From the NCBI GenBank assembly GCA_910574895.1, contig CAJTDQ010000005.1, forward strand, positions 62,001-126,000: a stretch of 64,000 nucleotides of DNA, written 5' to 3'. Below are positions 10,019 through 62,540 of the stretch, one piece after another (within the stretch, counting starts at the first letter, position 1; each line of letters begins with the position of its first letter). Source of the DNA: Eubacteriaceae bacterium (GTDB lineage Bacteria > Bacillota > Clostridia > Lachnospirales > Lachnospiraceae). A program made the translations under genes and the position numbers. The notes under the pieces are model-generated. The model was given only the letters and a program-made list of their open reading frames with translations. It was not told the origin of the DNA and made no database searches.

Positions 10019-10496
10019 TGCTTTAGCCTTCTTTCTATTCTCTTCCTGACAATGAATAAAACTACAACAAGTCATTATCTTGTTGGTACTTATCTTATAA
10101 AATGTAAAAAGCATAATTATTTAAGATGGGCAGTGTATCCATTATCTCAGGTACTCTTTCCAGAGTGTGTCGAGAACCATTTCCAACTTCTAAACAATCA
10201 TGCGTATCACTATCATGATTTCTTTTCAATTAAAATATATTATTGTTATTTATCATTGTCAACAAAAAACTCTTTTATGTATGTTGTGAAATAATTTTAA
10301 AAGAGCCTCCGAAAAGCCCCTTGAGTAAACTCGAAAGTTCTTAAATGATTTACTATATATTGCGTGACAATGTCTCGCTAAAACCTCGATTACACTTCGT
10401 TTCATCTCGGTCATCTCAACATTGCCTATGAACGCAAAAAAAGACACAATCGCAAGTAAACTTGCATTGTGCCTTTCCATGCGTTCGCACGCAATA
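10019..10496. other. Intergenic region between DUF1848 and rpsI
   Basis: This 478-base spacer holds the rpsI terminator (10436-10473), a small TGCGT/ACGCA hairpin just behind the rpsI stop (10480-10493) and AT-rich sequence without a supported gene. A 73-codon minus-strand frame (10259-10480) begins inside the terminator hairpin and has no ribosome-binding site. Confidence 0.6.
10436..10473 (-). terminator. Terminator of the rplM-rpsI operon
   Basis: On the minus strand the arms GCACAATGCAAG and CTTGCGATTGTG are followed by seven T residues. Confidence 0.85.
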
Positions 10497-39808: not shown

Positions 39809-40046
39809 AAAAAAAGCCGCCTCCTTTTCGTACTATTTTAAACTCTAGCACGACAAGCGGTGACCGTACAACCTTTCCGTGTGTGTCATATTTTATATCA
39901 CGTTCACACGGCGTTTCCACTCCCTGGTGGACTAATTTTTGTACAGTGACTTGTCGCCAGTTTCCTAACTTGACATTCGCTCCACGGAAAACCTGCATCT
40001 TTCGTATGCAGCAACCTCACGTTTCAACGCTATCAATGTCACAGCA
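39809..40046 (-). promoter_or_regulatory. Structured leader of the S10 operon
   Basis: The roughly 237-base 5' region folds well: a long-range stem CGACAAG/CTTGTCG extended by GTAC/GTAC (39851-39956), inside it CCGTGTG/CACACGG (39877-39911), and a separate CTGCAT/ATGCAG hairpin (39993-40011). S10-operon leaders are targets of autoregulation by L4 in some bacteria; for this lineage that is inference. No gene lies in this stretch. Confidence 0.6.
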
Positions 40047-54760: not shown

Positions 54761-56050
54761 CTATTCCACTGCTTTAAATGCCTCATCCAAATCCTCAAGA
54801 ATGTCATCAATATTTTCTGTTCCAATAGACAGTCTGATTGTGTTTGGCTTGATATCCTGTTCCAATAATTCTTCCTGTGTGCACTGACTGTGAGTCGTTG
54901 TTGCCGGATGAATTACCAGAGACTTTGAATCCGCTACATTTGCTAACAATGAGAATAACTGCAAATTATCAATAAATTTATGTGCTTCTTCCTGTCCACC
55001 CTTTATATTGAATGTAAAAATACTTGCCCCGCCATTTGGGAAATATTTCTCATATAGTGCATGATCCGGATGTTCTGGAAGTGATGGATGATTTACCTTT
55101 TCTACCAACGGATGATTTGATAAATATTCTACTACCTTCTTTGTATTTTCATTATGTCTATCGATACGAAGTGACAATGTCTCTGTTCCCTGCAATAACA
55201 AGAATGCATTAAATGGTGAAATTGCCGCTCCGGTATCTCTTAAAAGAATTGCTCTAATGTATGTAGCAAATGCTGCCGGTCCTGCTGCCTCTGTAAATTT
55301 CACCCCATGATAACTTGGGTTTGGTTCTGAAATTCCAGGATATTTACCAGAAGCTGCCCAATCAAATGTACCACCGTCTATTATCACACCACCAAGAGAT
55401 GTACCATGTCCACCAATAAACTTCGTAGCAGAATGCACTACGATATCTGCCCCATGTTCAATTGGTCTGATTAAATATGGTGTACCAAAAGTATTGTCTA
55501 CTACGACCGGAAGTCCATGTTTATGTGCAATCTCTGCAATCGCATCAATATCCGGAATATCACTATTTGGATTTCCAAGTGTTTCTAAATAAACTGCCTT
55601 TGTATTTTCCTGTATTGCACCTTCTACCTCTTCCAAATTATGAGCATCTACAAAAGTAGTATGAATCCCATAATTTGTAAGTGTATGTGCCAGAAGATTT
55701 GATGTTCCACCATAAATTGTTTTTTGTGCAACAATATGTTCTCCAGCACTAGCCAATGCCTGAATCGTATAAGCAATGGCTGCCGCTCCTGATGCAACTG
55801 CAAGACCTGCTACACCACCTTCTAATTTTGCAATTCTGTCTTCAAAAACTCCCTGTGTAGAGTTTGTAAGTCTTCCATAAATGTTTCCTGCGTCTGCCAG
55901 ACCAAATCTTGCTGCCGCATGTGCAGAGTCTCTAAATACATATGATGTTGTCTGATATATCGGAACCGCTCTGGCATCTGTTGCCGGATCCGGATTTTCC
56001 TGTCCTACGTGTAACTGTAATGTTTCAAATTTATAATTTCTCTTGCTCAT
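54761..56050 (-). CDS. metY: O-acetylhomoserine sulfhydrylase (MetY type)
   Basis: 429 residues, PLP enzyme of the Cys/Met metabolism fold. The PLP lysine is in VVHSATKFIGGHGTS, and the start ETLQLHVGQENPDPATDARA, VPIYQTTSYVF and the length fit the O-acetylhomoserine group rather than cystathionine synthases (about 380). It joins sulfide or methanethiol to O-acetylhomoserine to make homocysteine or methionine. It lies 48 bases after cysK in the same direction. Confidence 0.92.
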   Translation of the reverse strand: MSKRNYKFETLQLHVGQENPDPATDARAVPIYQTTSYVFRDSAHAAARFGLADAGNIYGRLTNSTQGVFEDRIAKLEGGVAGLAVASGAAAIAYTIQALASAGEHIVAQKTIYGGTSNLLAHTLTNYGIHTTFVDAHNLEEVEGAIQENTKAVYLETLGNPNSDIPDIDAIAEIAHKHGLPVVVDNTFGTPYLIRPIEHGADIVVHSATKFIGGHGTSLGGVIIDGGTFDWAASGKYPGISEPNPSYHGVKFTEAAGPAAFATYIRAILLRDTGAAISPFNAFLLLQGTETLSLRIDRHNENTKKVVEYLSNHPLVEKVNHPSLPEHPDHALYEKYFPNGGASIFTFNIKGGQEEAHKFIDNLQLFSLLANVADSKSLVIHPATTTHSQCTQEELLEQDIKPNTIRLSIGTENIDDILEDLDEAFKAVE

Positions 56051-56098: not shown

Positions 56099-57031
56099 CT
56101 ACTGAAAGAGAGCCGTGCTGTAGTATCTGTCTCCTGAATCAGGAAGCAGTGCAACAATTTTCTTTCCTTTGTTTTCCGGTCTCTTTGCCAGTTCTGTTGC
56201 TGCAAACAATGCTGCTCCTGATGAAATTCCAACCAAAACACCTTCTGTTTTTGCAATTGCTTTTCCTGTTTCAAAAGCGTCTTCATTCGCAACTGGTATA
56301 ATTTCATCATAAATTTCCGTATTAAGTACATCCGGAACAAATCCTGCGCCGATTCCCTGAATCTTATGCGCTCCTGCTCTTCCTTCCGAAAGCACTGGGC
56401 TGTCCTTTGGTTCTACTGCTACAACTTTTACATTTGGATTCTTTGATTTTAAATATTCTCCAACACCCGTAATTGTTCCACCGGTTCCTACGCCTGCTAC
56501 AAAAATATCAATCTCTCCGTCTGTATCTTCCCAGATTTCCGGACCTGTCGTCAACTTATGAACTTTAGGATTTGACGAATTTATAAACTGTCCAAGAATA
56601 ACAGCCCCCGGTGTTTCGTTCTTTATCTCCTCTGCCTTAGCGATAGCACCTTTCATTCCTTTCGAACCTTCTGTAAGAACAATTTCTGCTCCATATGCTT
56701 TAATAATATTTCTTCGCTCAACACTCATTGTCTCCGGAATGGTAATAACGACTTTATAACCTTTTGCTGCTGCAACCGCCGCAATACCAATTCCCGTATT
56801 TCCAGATGTCGGTTCAATCAATGTTGCTCCCGGCTTAATTCTGCCACTCTCTTCTAAATCCTGTATCATCTGAAGTGCCACTCTATCCTTGACGCTTCCT
56901 GCCGGATTAAAATATTCCAACTTTACTAAAATCTCCGCCTCCGTCGCATCTGCATTTCTCTGATAATTTTCCACCAGCAATAGAGGGGTCTTCCCTATTA
57001 ACTCTAACGCACTTTTTTTTATGTCTGACAT
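56099..57031 (-). CDS. cysK: Cysteine synthase A
   Basis: 310 residues with the PLP lysine in NPAGSVKDRVA, the SGNTGIG loop and GTGGTITGVGEYL phosphate-binding region. It makes cysteine from O-acetylserine and sulfide. Two copies of an inverted repeat frame its promoter, so repression by a sulfur- or Fe-S-responsive regulator is likely. GGAGG precedes the start. Probably transcribed with metY. Confidence 0.95.
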   Translation of the reverse strand: MSDIKKSALELIGKTPLLLVENYQRNADATEAEILVKLEYFNPAGSVKDRVALQMIQDLEESGRIKPGATLIEPTSGNTGIGIAAVAAAKGYKVVITIPETMSVERRNIIKAYGAEIVLTEGSKGMKGAIAKAEEIKNETPGAVILGQFINSSNPKVHKLTTGPEIWEDTDGEIDIFVAGVGTGGTITGVGEYLKSKNPNVKVVAVEPKDSPVLSEGRAGAHKIQGIGAGFVPDVLNTEIYDEIIPVANEDAFETGKAIAKTEGVLVGISSGAALFAATELAKRPENKGKKIVALLPDSGDRYYSTALFQ

Positions 57032-57063
57032 TTCTACATACCTCCAATTATATTTATGTTTTA

Positions 57064-57086
57064 ATTCCTATTAATTTAGTAGGTTT
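57064..57086. promoter_or_regulatory. Candidate Rrf2-type operator, cysK site 1
   Basis: ATTCCTA, nine bases, TAGGTTT: the same CCTA-N9-TAGG core as at iscS. It lies just downstream of the predicted transcription start of cysK. Confidence 0.55.
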
Positions 57087-57100
57087 TAATCACTGTTAAA

Positions 57101-57129
57101 ATAATACCATCTTTTTCCTATCTTTGCAA
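57101..57129 (-). promoter_or_regulatory. Promoter of cysK
   Basis: TTGCAA (57124-57129), 17 bases, TATTAT (57101-57106) on the minus strand. The -35 box falls in the spacer of operator site 2. Confidence 0.6.
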
Positions 57130-57136
57130 TAGGTTT
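57114..57136. promoter_or_regulatory. Candidate Rrf2-type operator, cysK site 2
   Basis: TTTCCTA, nine bases, TAGGTTT, centred 50 bases from site 1 and covering the -35 box. Confidence 0.55.
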
Positions 57137-57220
57137 TTAAATTTTAATTAAAATAAATGTCATTTTCATTTTACATATTTTTATAATGTAATGCTACTAT
57201 ATTTTTTTATGTACTAACAA

Positions 57221-57251
57221 AAAAACATGAAAGACTTCTCCCTCATGTTTC
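57221..57251 (-). terminator. Terminator of the DUF2383-like gene
   Basis: Arms AACATGA/TCATGTT followed by seven T residues on the minus strand. Confidence 0.8.
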
Positions 57252-57270
57252 TTCGCCTAATATTCGATAT

Positions 57271-57702
57271 TTATAAAAACTTTTCCATGTGTCCCATAAA
57301 CTCTTTTTCTGTTTTTACCAACTGATGTGCAATCCTTTTTGCTTCTTCGGAAGCATTGCTATAATCATTTTCATATTCACAGATAGACTGAATCCCCATA
57401 TTACATCCATCCATCATCAACTTCGCTGCCTGATGATTGTCTCCCATAAAAGTCATTTTCATTTCAGTAGTCAAATGAGACATGACACTTGCCATTAAGC
57501 CCGGTTCCTTTCCATTCTCCCCTGCATCCTGCAGTAAATGTACTGTCCTTGCTTTAATCTGCTTATGTTTATCCTTATATTCTTCAATAATATTTTTCAT
57601 CTGACTATCATGTAATTTTTCTTCAACTTGTTCCATACTTCCTATTGCCATCTTACAACCGGAATTACACTCTTTTAGCAATTTAATTGTATCCTCGTTC
57701 AT
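57271..57702 (-). CDS. Small ferritin-like helical protein (DUF2383/PA2169-like)
   Basis: About 143 residues from the ATG behind GGGAGG; the longer frame has no site. The sequence is all-helical with ECNSGCKMAIGSMEQVEEKL, ATVHLLQD-like ARTVHLLQDAG and MMDGCNMGIQSICEYEND segments, resembling the DUF2383 ferritin-like group, but the family match is from memory and moderate. Function unknown. It is downstream of mnmA on the other side of a terminator. Confidence 0.65.
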   Translation of the reverse strand: MNEDTIKLLKECNSGCKMAIGSMEQVEEKLHDSQMKNIIEEYKDKHKQIKARTVHLLQDAGENGKEPGLMASVMSHLTTEMKMTFMGDNHQAAKLMMDGCNMGIQSICEYENDYSNASEEAKRIAHQLVKTEKEFMGHMEKFL

Positions 57703-57779
57703 ATTACCTCCCGGGTGTATCAAACCCAAACTATAAAAATTAATGATTTTTATTAATATTTACAAGTATACAGATTTTA

Positions 57780-58862
57780 TTACATTATTTCAGTTTTCAC
57801 AATACAGCCTCCGCCAAGAACTATTTCCCCATTATATAATACAACCGACTGTCCTTTTGTAATTGCACGAATAGGCTCATCAAATGTAATTTTTACATTA
57901 CCATTATCCAATACCTCTGCCACTCCCTCTGTCAATGGTTGATGATATCTGGTTCTTCCACTAATTCGAATGGGTTCTTTTGGAATCTCCCCTGAAATCC
58001 AATTGAAATCTGCAGCAATTAATTCTGTTGAAAATAAATCTTTATTTCTTCCTACTACAACCTCATTTGTTTCCGGTTTGATTTCTAGCACATAATGTTT
58101 TCCATCGCGATTCACATTAATTCCTTTTCTCTGACCAACTGTATACCGATAATATCCGTTATGTTGTCCAATTACTTTTCCGTTAATATCTAAAAAATTA
58201 CCCTTTCCAACTTTTTCATTCGTGTAATTTTCAATAAACTGCATATGATTGCCATCAGGGATAAAACATATATCCTGGCTATCATGTTTATCTGCATTAA
58301 TTAACTGATACTTATCAGCAATTTTTCTGATTTCCTCCTTAGTATATTCACCGAGTGGGAGCATAGTATGTGCCAGCTGCTTCTGGGTCATATAATACAG
58401 AACATAACTTTGATCTTTTGAATCATCCACACCTTTTAATAACTCATATTTTTTTGTTTCCTGATTAAATCTGATTCGTGCATAATGTCCGGTAACAATC
58501 ACGTCACATTCTAATTCTTTTGCCCGACGGTCTAACTCATTAAATTTCAGATAACGGTTACAGTCTACACAAGGATTTGGTGTCATACCGCATTTGTAAC
58601 AACTCACAAATTTGTCCATAACTTTTTCCCTAAATTGTGCTTTAAAATTAAACACGTAATATGGAAAACCAAACTTATGGGCAATACTTCTGGCATCTTC
58701 TATATCACTTAAAGAACAACAGGTCTTTTCCTGAGACATATTTAAATCTTCATTATCATAAAGTTTCATTGTAACGCCTATAGGCTCGTATCCTTTTTCT
58801 TTCATAAACACGGCAGCAACACTACTGTCTACACCACCGCTCATTGCAATCAGTGCTTTCAT
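57780..58862 (-). CDS. mnmA: tRNA 2-thiouridylase MnmA
   Basis: 360 residues from the ATG giving MKALIAMSGGVDSSVAAVFM (PP-loop), preceded by AAGGA; the earlier start is unsupported. Catalytic cysteines are in NPCVDCNRYLKF and SQDICFIPDG. It adds sulfur to U34 of Lys, Glu and Gln tRNAs using sulfur from IscS, whose gene lies upstream in the same unit. Confidence 0.95.
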   Translation of the reverse strand: MKALIAMSGGVDSSVAAVFMKEKGYEPIGVTMKLYDNEDLNMSQEKTCCSLSDIEDARSIAHKFGFPYYVFNFKAQFREKVMDKFVSCYKCGMTPNPCVDCNRYLKFNELDRRAKELECDVIVTGHYARIRFNQETKKYELLKGVDDSKDQSYVLYYMTQKQLAHTMLPLGEYTKEEIRKIADKYQLINADKHDSQDICFIPDGNHMQFIENYTNEKVGKGNFLDINGKVIGQHNGYYRYTVGQRKGINVNRDGKHYVLEIKPETNEVVVGRNKDLFSTELIAADFNWISGEIPKEPIRISGRTRYHQPLTEGVAEVLDNGNVKITFDEPIRAITKGQSVVLYNGEIVLGGGCIVKTEIM

Positions 58863-58934
58863 AAATTCATCCTTCATCACGGCATAGCCATTATTCATAT
58901 TTCACTAACATACTACCCCAATTGAATGATTTTA

Positions 58935-59309
58935 TCAACACGATTTTTTCATCTGATAATCCTCAATCGCACACTTAATAGCTTCTTCTGCCAATACCGA
59001 ACAATGTATCTTATGAGCAGGCAGCCCCTCAAGCGCCTCTACTACAGCCTTATTCGTCAATTCCAATGCCTGATGAACCGGCTTTCCCTTTATCAATTCA
59101 GTTGCCATTGAACTGCTGGCAATAGCAGAACCACAACCAAATGTCTGAAACTTCACATCAGATATCACCCCATTATCTACCTTAATATAGATTTTCATAA
59201 TATCTCCACACTTGGCATTTCCTACTTCACCAATACCATCTGCATCATCAAGCTTTCCTACGTTTCTAGGATTCATAAAATGATCCATTACTTTCTCACT
59301 ATATAACAT
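58935..59309 (-). CDS. iscU: Fe-S cluster scaffold protein IscU/NifU-like
   Basis: 124 residues with Cys34 (KCGD), Cys59 (GCGSAIASSS) and Cys103 (HCSVLAEEA) plus Asp36, the cluster ligands. It builds Fe-S clusters with sulfur from the upstream desulfurase; GAGGAG precedes the start. Confidence 0.95.
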   Translation of the reverse strand: MLYSEKVMDHFMNPRNVGKLDDADGIGEVGNAKCGDIMKIYIKVDNGVISDVKFQTFGCGSAIASSSMATELIKGKPVHQALELTNKAVVEALEGLPAHKIHCSVLAEEAIKCAIEDYQMKKSC

Positions 59310-59332
59310 AAAAACTCCTCTCGTTTATTGTC

Positions 59333-60520
59333 TTATTCATTATTTGTTTCTTTTTGTTTCGTAATCTGTTCCCACATTGGAGAAATACTTCTAAGATACT
59401 CCACCACTTCTTTTGTCTGCTCTACAATATAGTCCATTTCTTCCATGGTATTTTCAGAACTTATTGTCAGCCTCAGAGAACCGTGAGCGACCTCATGAGG
59501 TCTTCCAATTGCCAGAAGAACATGGCTGGGTTCCAACGAACCGGATGTACATGCTGAACCGGATGAAGCAGAAATACCTCTGGAATCTAACAACAACAAT
59601 AAAGATTCCCCTTCAATTCCCTCAAAAATGTAATTCACATTCCCGGGTAATCTGTTTTTCCAATCACCATTTAACATCGAATGACTGATTTCAGACAGCC
59701 CCACAATCAACCTGTCTCTTAAAGCAGTCTCTTTTCGGGCATTTTCTTCTAAATGACTACATGCTTCTTTCAAAGTTTCTGCCATACCTGCAATTCCCGG
59801 AAGATTTTCCGTACCCGCACGCTTTCCCCGCTCCTGTGCTCCTCCTTCAATAATATTTGTAAGAGGAAGATTTTTTCTAACATATAATGCTCCCACCCCT
59901 TTTGGCCCATGAAATTTGTGGGATGATAGTGACAACATATCAATATTTAATTTTTTTACATCAATTTCTACATGGCCTGCTGCCTGAACCGCATCTGTAT
60001 GAAAGATAATTTCTTTTTCTCTGCATATTCTCCCAATCTCTCCAATAGGCTGTATCGTCCCAATCTCATTATTTGCAAACATAATTGTCGCGAATGCTGT
60101 ATCTTCTCTAATTGCATCAACAAAATCTTCTACTCTGATAATTCCATCTTCCGGTACATCCAATAGCGTTACTTCAAAACCTTTCTTTTCTAATTTTTTT
60201 AATGTATGGAGTACTGCGTGATGTTCTATTTTCGTCGAAATAATATGTTTCTTCTTATTTAAAAGACCAATTTCTGCTGCCGAGATAATCGCCTGATTAT
60301 CTGACTCAGTCCCTCCTGACGTAAAATATACTTCTTTAAATTCTGCTCCAATACAATCAGCAACATCCTTTCTTGCTTTTTCAAGTATTTCCTTAGCTTT
60401 CTGTCCCATACTGTGCAGACTCGAAGGATTACCATATACATCCTTCATTATATTTAAAACAGTTTCCACTGCTGACTTACTCATTTTTGTTGTAGCAGCA
60501 TTATCAGCATATATATACAT
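59333..60520 (-). CDS. iscS: Cysteine desulfurase, IscS/NifS type
   Basis: 395 residues from the ATG giving MYIYADNAATTKMSKSAVET behind AGGAGG; the longer frame would run through the promoter. The PLP lysine is in SLSSHKFHGPKG and the sulfur-carrying cysteine in ASSGSACTSGS. It moves sulfur from cysteine to IscU and MnmA. First gene of iscS-iscU-mnmA. An inverted repeat covers the predicted start of transcription. Confidence 0.95.
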   Translation of the reverse strand: MYIYADNAATTKMSKSAVETVLNIMKDVYGNPSSLHSMGQKAKEILEKARKDVADCIGAEFKEVYFTSGGTESDNQAIISAAEIGLLNKKKHIISTKIEHHAVLHTLKKLEKKGFEVTLLDVPEDGIIRVEDFVDAIREDTAFATIMFANNEIGTIQPIGEIGRICREKEIIFHTDAVQAAGHVEIDVKKLNIDMLSLSSHKFHGPKGVGALYVRKNLPLTNIIEGGAQERGKRAGTENLPGIAGMAETLKEACSHLEENARKETALRDRLIVGLSEISHSMLNGDWKNRLPGNVNYIFEGIEGESLLLLLDSRGISASSGSACTSGSLEPSHVLLAIGRPHEVAHGSLRLTISSENTMEEMDYIVEQTKEVVEYLRSISPMWEQITKQKETNNE

Positions 60521-60536
60521 ATTGTTTCCTCCTTTT

Positions 60537-60559
60537 ATTCCTATTGTTTCACTAGGAAT
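60537..60559. promoter_or_regulatory. Candidate Rrf2-type operator at iscS
   Basis: Perfect seven-base arms ATTCCTA and TAGGAAT with a nine-base spacer. It touches the -10 box and covers the start point of iscS, a repressor position. Confidence 0.6.
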
Positions 60560-60586
60560 TATACTTCTGTTTTTTAAATTTGTAAA
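60558..60586 (-). promoter_or_regulatory. Promoter of iscS-iscU-mnmA
   Basis: TTTACA (60581-60586), 17 bases, TATAAT (60558-60563) on the minus strand. Confidence 0.7.
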
Positions 60587-60747: not shown

Positions 60748-61443
60748 TTGAAGATTAAAATTTTTAGTTTTATGTTATTATTGTTTATATGTACAGCTAC
60801 TACATTTACAATAAAAGCTGACACTCAGCCAATAACTACGAACAAATCAATAAAAGTAAATAAAAACACAAAATTATATAAAATACTTAAAGTTAAGAAA
60901 AGTACAATGAAGAACTACACTATCACATCAAGCAAACCTAAAGTTGCTTCTGTTTCATCGACAGGTGTAGTCAAAGGATTAAAAAAAGGTTCTTCTACAA
61001 TCGAACTGCTTTCAAAATCAACTGGTACAGCTTTTGCTAAAGTTAAAATTAAAGTTAAAAACAAATATAACAAGGCTGAATTAAGATTAATGTCATCAAT
61101 CATTTTCAGCGAAGCCGGCAGCGAGTGTTTTGCCGGAAAAAAAGCTGTTGGAATTGTAATCATGAACCGCATAAAATCAAAAAGTTTTCCAGGCTCTTTA
61201 AGCGGGGTTATTTATCAGCCATACCAGTTCGGTCCTGTTAGAAACGGCTCATTAAGCCGCTCCCTTTCCTTATATGACAGCGGAAGATTAAACAAAGACT
61301 GTATTAAAGCAGCAAAATTAACATTAAATGGAGACAAAAAAGTAAAATACAGAAATAAAACAATTGATATGTCCAGTTACTTATTCTTTAGTGGATATGT
61401 CAGTGGAGCAAGATTATCAATTCAGAATCATCAATTTAAATAA
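60748..61443 (+). CDS. Secreted SleB-type cell-wall hydrolase with Ig-like (Big2) domain
   Basis: 231 residues: signal peptide (1-24), bacterial Ig-like domain (about 30-105, ITSSKPKVASVSSTGVVKGL), and a SleB hydrolase domain (about 108-231, with SSIIFSEAGSECFAGKKAVG and catalytic Glu122, YQPYQFGPV). Such enzymes cleave glycan strands of peptidoglycan; SleB proper works in spore germination, but a vegetative promoter suggests wall turnover. The start codon is TTG, five bases after GGAGG. It is convergent to the Rrf2 gene and sits between it and iscS. Confidence 0.88.
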   Translation: MKIKIFSFMLLLFICTATTFTIKADTQPITTNKSIKVNKNTKLYKILKVKKSTMKNYTITSSKPKVASVSSTGVVKGLKKGSSTIELLSKSTGTAFAKVKIKVKNKYNKAELRLMSSIIFSEAGSECFAGKKAVGIVIMNRIKSKSFPGSLSGVIYQPYQFGPVRNGSLSRSLSLYDSGRLNKDCIKAAKLTLNGDKKVKYRNKTIDMSSYLFFSGYVSGARLSIQNHQFK

Positions 61444-61489
61444 AATAAAAGAGTTCGCTTCAATTTAATTTGCGAACTCTTTTATTTTA
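61441..61489. terminator. Bidirectional terminator between the SleB and Rrf2 genes
   Basis: Eighteen-base arms TAAAATAAAAGAGTTCGC and its complement (61441-61458 and 61472-61489). Confidence 0.9.
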
Positions 61490-61897
61490 TATTCTTTTAT
61501 TTATCACATCATCTAATGTAACGCTGTCAAGATATTTATCAATAATATGATTTAATTCTTTCCAAAGTGGCAGCGTGACACAATCTTTTGCTCTTTCACA
61601 AGCTTCAGCTCCTTCTTCTAAACACATAACCGGAGCTAATGTACCTTCTGTAAGTTTTAAAATTTCACCTACCGTATATTCTGATGGAGTCTTGGCTAAT
61701 TTATATCCTCCCGTTTTTCCTCTTTGGCTGCGTACCATATTTCCCTTATTAAGCATCGACACAATCATCTCTAAATATTTCATAGATATATTCTGTCTCT
61801 CTGCAACATCTTTTAACGAAACAAAATTTTCATCTCCGTTCTGAGCCAGATCTATCATTACACGAAGAGCATATCTTCCTTTTGTTGAAATCATCAT
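61487..61897 (-). CDS. Rrf2 family transcription regulator with three cysteines (IscR/CymR-like)
   Basis: 136 residues: winged-helix domain (GRYALRVMIDLAQNG, SMKYLEMIVSMLNKG, RGKTGGYKLAKTP) and Cys92, Cys100 and Cys106 (CX7CX5C), close to the IscR spacing that holds a [2Fe-2S] cluster; CymR proteins lack them. It probably senses Fe-S or cysteine status and represses the iscS and cysK promoters, inferred from proximity and shared palindromes. Its start overlaps the PAP2 gene by four bases. Confidence 0.88.
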   Translation of the reverse strand: MMISTKGRYALRVMIDLAQNGDENFVSLKDVAERQNISMKYLEMIVSMLNKGNMVRSQRGKTGGYKLAKTPSEYTVGEILKLTEGTLAPVMCLEEGAEACERAKDCVTLPLWKELNHIIDKYLDSVTLDDVINKRI

Positions 61898-62448
61898 AAT
61901 ATTTCACCTCTGTTCTGCTTTTTTGCAATAAAAGCACTGATAATTCTATTTCCTGTATAATATGTTGCCATTCCGATAATCACCCCTAATACTGCTCCGC
62001 CTAAAACATCTGTAGGAAAATGAACATATAAATATAATCTGGAAAAAGCAATTCCTGCTGCAAGTGGAATTACTATCCATCCCCACTCTTTTCTATAAAG
62101 CGTTATAATTGTTGCTGCTATCACAGATGCCTGTGTATGCCCCGATGGGAATGAATAATCTTTTGGCACAGATATTAACATATTAAATTCTGTGTCAAGC
62201 CAGCACGGTCTTGGTCTTGCCACCAGATTCTTCAAAATTCCATTGCCAATAATCAATCCAAGCAATAACCCTACAAGGACTAAAAACCCTATTTTACGAT
62301 GTTTCTTACTTATCAGCAAAACAACACCTATTACTATCCATATAGCACCGGCATTTCCTAACATAGTGATTCTTGGCATAAGCCAATCCATAAATCCACT
62401 ACTTAGCATACTTTGTATTTTATCTAATATTGTCCAATCAATCGCCAT
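61894..62448 (-). CDS. PAP2-family membrane phosphatase
   Basis: About 184 residues with five to six spans and the three phosphatase motifs KNLVARPRP, FPSGHTQAS and SRLYLYVHFPTD. Such enzymes dephosphorylate undecaprenyl diphosphate or lipid phosphates on the outer face of the membrane. I favour the second ATG (AGGAA seven bases upstream) over one two codons earlier. It is translationally coupled to the Rrf2 regulator. Confidence 0.9.
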   Translation of the reverse strand: MAIDWTILDKIQSMLSSGFMDWLMPRITMLGNAGAIWIVIGVVLLISKKHRKIGFLVLVGLLLGLIIGNGILKNLVARPRPCWLDTEFNMLISVPKDYSFPSGHTQASVIAATIITLYRKEWGWIVIPLAAGIAFSRLYLYVHFPTDVLGGAVLGVIIGMATYYTGNRIISAFIAKKQNRGEIL

Positions 62449-62540
62449 AATCATTTCCTGTTTCGTTATTTCTTGTCATTCTACAATATATTTCTTATTA
62501 TATTAAAACATAATCTGCAATATTTGTCCATTAAGGAAAA

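Follow-up and report, generated by a model that had tools for sequence, protein, structure and literature searches.

Palindromic operators shared by iscS and cysK suggest joint Rrf2 control of cysteine supply and Fe-S cluster assembly in a clostridial bacterium

Introduction

The sulfur for assembly of iron-sulfur (Fe-S) clusters comes from cysteine, and in the textbook cases the two are controlled separately, IscR responding to clusters and CymR or CysB to cysteine. Dimers of Rrf2 proteins bind palindromes of the type described here and often repress, and the cluster state of IscR sets its choice of DNA. We have analysed a stretch of 64,000 nucleotides (the window) from contig CAJTDQ010000005.1 of a Eubacteriaceae bacterium, in which similar palindromes stand at the promoters of iscS and cysK and a three-cysteine Rrf2 protein is encoded close by. 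The three palindromes are probably operators of one Rrf2 repressor, by which cysteine supply and Fe-S use would be co-repressed, with a Fe-S cluster as the probable signal.

Several related systems have been described, and the papers are cited here for the passages that bear on these genes. The iscR gene of E. coli is autoregulated, and the type 2 sites of its product have the geometry CC-N13-GG with W4 flanks (PMC4055776). CymR of B. subtilis, another Rrf2 repressor, is stated to bind no cluster (PMC9338935). In C. perfringens, the gene for the Rrf2 protein Cpe1786 adjoins iscS-iscU-trmU, and cysteine limitation induces all four genes (table values 3.4, 3.4, 6.7 and 3.5); Cpe1786 has earlier been proposed to connect cysteine with Fe-S clusters, while cysK is listed there under cysteine T-box control, which differs from the arrangement described here (PMC2940859). 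For C. acetobutylicum, a similarity between the motifs of IscR and CymR is noted, and both Rrf2 genes (CAC1675 and CAC2236) as well as cysK are predicted to be preceded by CymR-type sites, but the two Rrf2 proteins are given separate roles (PMC3828012). That prediction anticipates in part the shared operator class reported below. The passages on these two species describe neither a single Rrf2 protein at iscS and cysK, nor genus-wide conservation, nor C-terminal tails. A table from a study on iron and Fur in C. difficile has changed values for iscR and iscS2, which is only suggestive (PMC6311696). Titles and abstract beginnings of open-access papers, a body that leaves most subscription papers and RegPrecise outside, contained no description of a single Rrf2 protein whose operators stand at iscS as well as cysK, and none of three-cysteine Rrf2 proteins with CysK-type tails.

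Results

Three palindromes at two predicted promoters

The candidate operators, the predicted promoters and the genes concerned are listed with their positions in the window.

60537..60559, no strand: operator at iscS, ATTCCTATTGTTTCACTAGGAAT, from the last -10 bases through the predicted +1
57114..57136, no strand: upstream cysK operator, enclosing the -35 box TTGCAA (22.0 bits)
57064..57086, no strand: downstream cysK operator, beyond the predicted start point (21.0 bits)
60558..60586, minus strand: predicted iscS promoter TTTACA-17-TATAAT (promoter scan, 11/12 matches)
57101..57129, minus strand: predicted cysK promoter TTGCAA-17-TATTAT (promoter scan, 9/12 matches)
61487..61897, minus strand: Rrf2-family regulator, 136 amino acids, with Cys92, Cys100, Cys106 and Glu43
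59333..60520, minus strand: iscS/nifS-type cysteine desulfurase, passes NF002806 (IscS subfamily)
58935..59309, minus strand: iscU/NifU-type scaffold protein, TIGR03419 above cut-off
57780..58898, minus strand: mnmA, tRNA 2-thiouridine synthase, NF001138 above cut-off
56099..57031, minus strand: cysK, cysteine synthase A, TIGR01139 above cut-off
54761..56050, minus strand: metY, O-acetylhomoserine/O-acetylserine sulfhydrylase, TIGR01326 above cut-off

The iscS operator has the form ATTCCTA-N9-TAGGAAT and begins within the predicted -10 box, at its two final bases. Both cysK operators carry the CCTA-N9-TAGG core, and their centres are 50 bp apart. All three palindromes, the arrangement at cysK (one overlapping the -35 box, one past the start point) and a three-cysteine Rrf2 gene 0.9 kb from iscS had been reported in the first-pass annotation. 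Coordinates and layout could be reproduced, and the distance is 0.97 kb if measured from the 3′ end of the Rrf2 gene to the start of iscS. The core occurs four times in the window, where 0.32 occurrences are expected, and four were reached in none of 100 shuffles. As metY begins only 48 bp past cysK, it is probably co-transcribed with it.

For cysK, an alternative promoter (TTAATA-16-TATAAT, 57074..57047, 10/12 matches) starts within the downstream operator. Individual promoter calls are weak, because the scanned region contains 32 promoter-like sites as compared to 27.2 in shuffles. The hexamers TTTACA and TATAAT of the iscS promoter recur in 13 of 22 iscS loci of the genus, the remaining nine having TTGACT-17-TATAAT; the cysK -35 box is TTGACA in the 12 relatives which carry cysK operators. 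All 24 iscS sites found in the genus overlap a predicted promoter (13 on the -10/+1 region, 11 on the -35 box), and the -35 box of cysK is enclosed by the upstream site in all 13 cases. Since the operators overlap promoters, repression is likely, and the layout is the one to be expected if a repressor excludes RNA polymerase.

Specificity in the genome

We searched the genome with a profile (R1) that had been trained on 32 sites from relatives and on none from the window's own genome. Among the 150 of 3756 first-look candidates that were scored, its top three matches are exactly the iscS site, which is the best in the genome (24.8 bits, E 8.4e-5), and the two cysK sites (22.0 and 21.0 bits, E up to 1.4e-3), while the next independent match reaches 14.3 bits. 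With a matrix from which the window's sites had been excluded, the three sites scored 33.3, 29.2 and 28.6 in the window, and the next independent match scored 7.7. Enrichment is seen with the extended operator and not with the bare core. The exact pattern TTCCTAN9TAGGWW has six sites in the genome, and the three which are not at iscS or cysK are all inside ORFs. A loose pattern (TTCCTAN9TAGGAA with 3 mismatches) was discarded, as it gave 1663 forward matches against 1870 for the control and the iscS site was absent among the matches listed.

Conservation in the genus

The genus set consists of 23 genomes, 22 of which have an iscS orthologue with at least 64% identity and 22 a cysK orthologue with at least 70% identity. 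Each of the 22 iscS orthologues is preceded by a site, which has a perfect core in 21 genomes. For cysK, a site is found up to 400 nt upstream in 13 of 22 genomes, and in 11 of these 13 the sites are paired, the two starts being separated by 41 or 49-52 bp. A genus-wide model search gave at least one match at E <=0.1 in all 23 genomes.

In seven of the nine other genomes (loci L196-L202), the 3′ end of metY lies directly upstream of cysK. In five of these seven (G001, G006, G011, G013 and G015), iscS is located 1.8 kb upstream of cysK on the same strand, and the order iscS-iscU-metY-cysK with a divergent Rrf2 gene was checked in G001 and G013. An operator followed by iscS-iscU-metY-cysK is a further argument for the single Fe-S/cysteine regulon which the first-pass annotation had postulated. 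In another genome, G012, the operator precedes mnmA-cysK-metY.

The G012 locus (L312, G012:C41:1-4000) has its operator just before an ORF that, judged by eye, runs from the 3′ end of an iscU-like gene into mnmA. No iscS match above 49% was found in this genome. This looks like the result of a deletion or misassembly affecting iscS and the greater part of iscU.

Occurrence in the wider Clostridia

A wide sample comprised 80 named iscS loci (887 kb), 79 of them with at least 120 nt upstream. A score of at least 14 is reached within 300 nt upstream of iscS in 35 of the 79, and simulated sequence contains 0.33 such matches per 887 kb. There are 24 further matches with a score of at least 10, of which eight precede metY, three precede cysK and five precede an Rrf2 gene (one of the latter also faces metY). 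Two more precede a remote metY-like gene; the one that was tested belongs to the cystathionine gamma-lyase/synthase family but stays under the cut-offs. Of the remaining six, two are unassigned, one lies within a large ORF, one precedes nadA and two precede NlpA-lipoprotein genes. The nadA site is that of locus L098, and nadA is the gene of a Fe-S enzyme; the NlpA-lipoprotein genes, of ABC transporter type, are in L047 and L081.

A class-level sample was picked by the Rrf2 gene and comprises 89 loci of 2.1-4.4 kb, namely 29 search loci and 60 of the next 64 listed rows (G141:C5, G163:C12:3110, G051:C23:92842 and G117:C471 were left out). An isc gene, cysK or metY adjoins Rrf2 in 55 of the 89 loci (isc 31, cysK 22, metY 15), while in 34 none of them stands beside Rrf2 in the stretch covered. 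There are 40 operator-like matches with a score of at least 11; 32 of them are followed by Rrf2, iscS, cysK or metY at a distance of at most 350 nt, and eight are elsewhere (simulated sequence gives 0.33 at a score of at least 10). The postulated regulon is supported by sites that are conserved in the genus and recur before iscS, cysK, metY and Rrf2 genes in the wider Clostridia.

The Rrf2 protein

Only one Rrf2 gene was detected in the genome (E <=0.001), and for this reason its product may be taken as the regulator of the operators, by elimination only. The protein belongs to the Rrf2 superfamily, as it passes both TIGR00738 (138.3 bits, cut-off 73.3) and PF02082 (136.3 bits, cut-off 30). 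The best solved relatives are 4cic (E 3.4e-28), which we take to be IscR of T. potens, and E. coli IscR (4hf0, E 1.5e-22). Over the printed alignment stretches, identity is 40% to 4cic, 41% to CymR of B. subtilis (2y75) and 35% to E. coli IscR, and at this degree of similarity to Rrf2 proteins of solved structure (about 40% identity) we take the fold as settled.

Cys92, Cys100 and Cys106 are kept in all 23 orthologues of the genus and align with three serines of the 4cic chain, which presumably are ligand mutants. In the wide set, Cys92 is present in 48 of 49 proteins; the one that lacks it (L081) lacks the other two as well. Glu43 is present in all 83 aligned sequences; the matching residue of E. 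coli IscR is described as contacting an operator C (PMC9338935).

The protein thus resembles IscR of E. coli and T. potens in its Rrf2 fold as judged by sequence, in the positions of the three cysteines, in Glu43 and in the linkage to iscS-iscU. The iscS operator also has CC-N13-GG with W4 flanks as in E. coli type 2 sites, a likeness of geometry only, since the inner bases differ. The system differs from that of IscR in the modest sequence identity and in the additional target cysK-metY. With CymR of B. subtilis and S. aureus it has in common the repressor family and cysK plus related sulfur genes as targets, and many clostridial relatives of the protein carry a tail with terminal Ile. However, unlike CymR, the window's protein has the three cysteines and no aromatic+Ile tail, and it fails the CymR equivalog NF047409 (114.8 bits, cut-off 195).

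C-terminal tails and second Rrf2 copies

Unexpectedly, a tail in which an aromatic residue accompanies a terminal Ile (examples are DYVI and MYYI) is found in 53 of 136 three-cysteine relatives outside the genus (47 of 89 class-level, 6 of 47 wide), 133 of which are distinct over the compared stretch. The baseline is 9 of 862 other ORFs of at least 150 amino acids in the same loci, with extended Rrf2 ORFs left out. The class-level sample was limited both by rank and to E 1e-20, so that the proportions do not hold for the class as a whole, and proteins without any cysteine are largely excluded. In a tree of 162 tips that was computed without the tails, there are 18 changes of tail state (shuffled mean 48, lowest 41); the tail appears to be inherited, yet to have changed repeatedly. 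A C-terminal Ile is described as the anchor by which CysE and CdiA bind in CysK, and the partners of this kind that are named include CymR (PMC12895370, PMC4961446).

Within the genus, none of the 23 three-cysteine proteins has the tail. The window's protein ends with NKRI, and Ile is the last residue in 3 of 23 orthologues; docking to CysK by the window's own Rrf2 is not claimed, since its terminal Ile is not conserved.

A second Rrf2 protein is encoded in 9 of the 23 genomes. Eight were read, and all of these are free of cysteine and end with MYYI; the ninth (G003) has 28% identity. Operator-like sites precede the second Rrf2 gene in four loci that were read (L306, L317, L318 and L323) and, by coordinates, also in G002, G007 and G008. 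Such sites also occur before metE-metF (L306) and metE (L313), and in G010 (L314), where no second Rrf2 was detected, before a glutamate-cysteine ligase-like gene that stays under the cut-offs. In relatives, the regulon seems to extend further, to genes for methionine and for thiols of the glutathione type.

Discussion

A probable joint switch for sulfur supply and use

An Rrf2 dimer on ATTCCTA-N9-TAGGAAT would cover the -10/+1 region of iscS-iscU-mnmA, and two dimers would cover the -35 box and the start region of cysK(-metY). Because both promoters would be covered, the supply of cysteine sulfur would be repressed and released jointly with its use in Fe-S clusters and thiolated tRNA. What the repressor probably senses is whether a Fe-S cluster occupies Cys92, Cys100 and Cys106. 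Upon shortage of cysteine, sulfur or iron, Rrf2 would lose its cluster and leave the DNA, and cysteine synthesis and cluster assembly (iscSU-mnmA and cysK-metY) would rise together. From the sequences we infer binding to the operators, repression, cluster carriage and the direction of the response. In anaerobes, among them several labelled as gut bacteria, a shared operator class for iscS, cysK and metY would offer a handle on how sulfur supply is matched to cluster demand.

Several observations weigh against such a cluster-sensing repressor. The bare core CCTA-N9-TAGG shows no genome-wide enrichment, as it has 20 sites and its reversed control has 30; the motif count was therefore dropped as evidence. 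Fourteen of its 20 sites are within ORFs of at least 126 amino acids, one is in a doubtful ORF of 108 amino acids, three are the iscS and cysK operators, and two are in no ORF of at least 70 amino acids (one between convergent gene ends, the other 0.25 kb before an Rhs-like fragment named by eye). The R1 search scored 150 of 3756 first-look candidates. Nine of the 22 cysK orthologues of the genus have no site within 400 nt, and G003 among them is unexplained. In the wide sample, only 35 of 79 iscS loci reach a score of 14, and 52 reach a score of 8, within 300 nt upstream. The protein fails the IscR equivalog TIGR02010 (127.7 bits, cut-off 207.55). His107, the fourth ligand of E. coli IscR, has no counterpart, as Cys106 is followed by VTLPLW; a His within six positions after Cys106 is present in 1 of 23 orthologues of the genus and not in the printed stretch of 4cic. 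Finally, and in contrast to E. coli iscR, no site was found in the window's own genome upstream of the Rrf2 gene or of the PAP2-type gene overlapping it. The earlier description of the protein as an IscR-like/CymR-like combination therefore stands in part: its targets are CymR-like, but both curated cut-offs are missed and the three-cysteine proteins of the genus are devoid of a tail of the CysK-docking type.

Among the alternatives, the same protein and regulon might respond to another signal, either to cysteine by way of CysK and O-acetylserine, as CymR does, or through thiol chemistry of the three cysteines. The CymR-like targets cysK and metY, the aromatic+Ile tails of relatives outside the genus, the Ile-anchored partners of CysK, and the cysteine response of the matching gene cluster in C. 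perfringens (PMC2940859) are in its favour. We nevertheless consider it unlikely, because the tail is absent from the three-cysteine proteins of the genus, and because B. subtilis CymR, which binds no cluster (PMC9338935), has V, gap and gap at the three columns where the window's protein has kept its cysteines. It is far less likely that a regulator of another family uses the palindromes, with the Rrf2 gene being just a neighbour. Palindromes are indeed used by other repressors too, and the link between Rrf2 and the sites is indirect. However, Rrf2 adjoins isc, cysK or metY in most class-level loci, the sites precede Rrf2 genes as well, including that of the cysteine-less paralogue, and TGTAA-N9-TTACA, with an equal N9 spacing, has been called a canonical Rrf2 operator (PMC9218516). 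That the palindromes are alike by chance, or merely share promoter sequence, can be given next to no weight. The failure of the bare core to exceed its reversed control would fit this explanation, and the -35 box TTGACA does contribute to cysK-type sites; yet 13 iscS sites off the -35 box still share both outer half-sites, the matrix without the window's sites left a wide gap to the next match, and genus-wide conservation already contradicts it.

Proposed Fe-S and cysteine inputs on one operator class

The tailed three-cysteine repressors outside the genus have a sequence that suggests a combination of IscR-like and CymR-like inputs. As their tails resemble the C-terminal Ile anchor of CysE and CdiA in CysK, we tentatively propose, at somewhat less than even chance, that many clostridial proteins named IscR are double sensors, with Fe-S cysteines and a CysK-docking tail, on iscS, cysK and metY operators, and that the inputs have been split in the genus. 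If so, Fe-S status and O-acetylserine/cysteine status would be integrated on one operator class, and the split would have produced a tail-less three-cysteine copy and a second, cysteine-less Rrf2 ending with MYYI. The window's species has the three-cysteine copy only and therefore would read cysteine supply through the Fe-S cluster alone. The tailed proteins raise the question of whether CysK binds to a cluster-containing Rrf2 repressor and how the cluster affects this binding.

Leader ORFs before cysK

Between the operators and cysK, small cysteine-rich leader ORFs of 31-42 amino acids with ribosome-site-like sequences occur in 8 of the 13 genomes of the genus that have cysK operators (L182, L183, L185, L188, L189, L190, L192 and L194). 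The peptides have the pattern Y-C-C ... R-M-C or RMCC, with YCQCC in L194. They look like cysteine-codon attenuators added to the repressor. NCBIfam gave no match for the five peptides that were tried, and Rfam none at this position in the loci that were searched. A search of 14 loci against Rfam at gathering thresholds for RNA control of cysK returned nothing but a tRNA in L205, and nothing near cysK of the window, in whose genome no cysteine-rich leader ORF before cysK was found. In L206, a second cysK is preceded by a different cysteine-rich leader and then, by eye, a terminator-like hairpin.

Neighbouring genes and other elements of the window

On the minus strand, the gene order is PAP2-type, Rrf2, iscS, iscU, mnmA, DUF2383-like, cysK, metY. 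The remaining features of this region are given here.

61894-62454, minus strand: PAP2-type phosphatase ORF, best NCBIfam match under cut-off; overlaps the Rrf2 gene at that gene's start
57271-57729, minus strand: small DUF2383-like gene of 152 amino acids between mnmA and cysK

The fourth CCTA-N9-TAGG core of the window (62000-62016) is within the PAP2-type ORF. The DUF2383 assignment is weak (Pfam 22.6, under the cut-off of 30.8), and this product has no NCBIfam match. The iscS product scores slightly under the cut-off of TIGR03402 (527.6 bits, cut-off 530.75). Between iscS and the Rrf2 gene, the opposite strand encodes a cell-wall hydrolase (PF07486) which also carries a Big_2 Ig-like domain (60748-61443), and a gene resembling it stands before mnmA in G012 (L312). 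Two structured RNAs exceed their gathering scores elsewhere in the window, both on the minus strand: an S10-Clostridia ribosomal protein leader at 39951-40035 (93.4 bits) and a skipping-rope RNA at 10117-10197 (49.4 bits).

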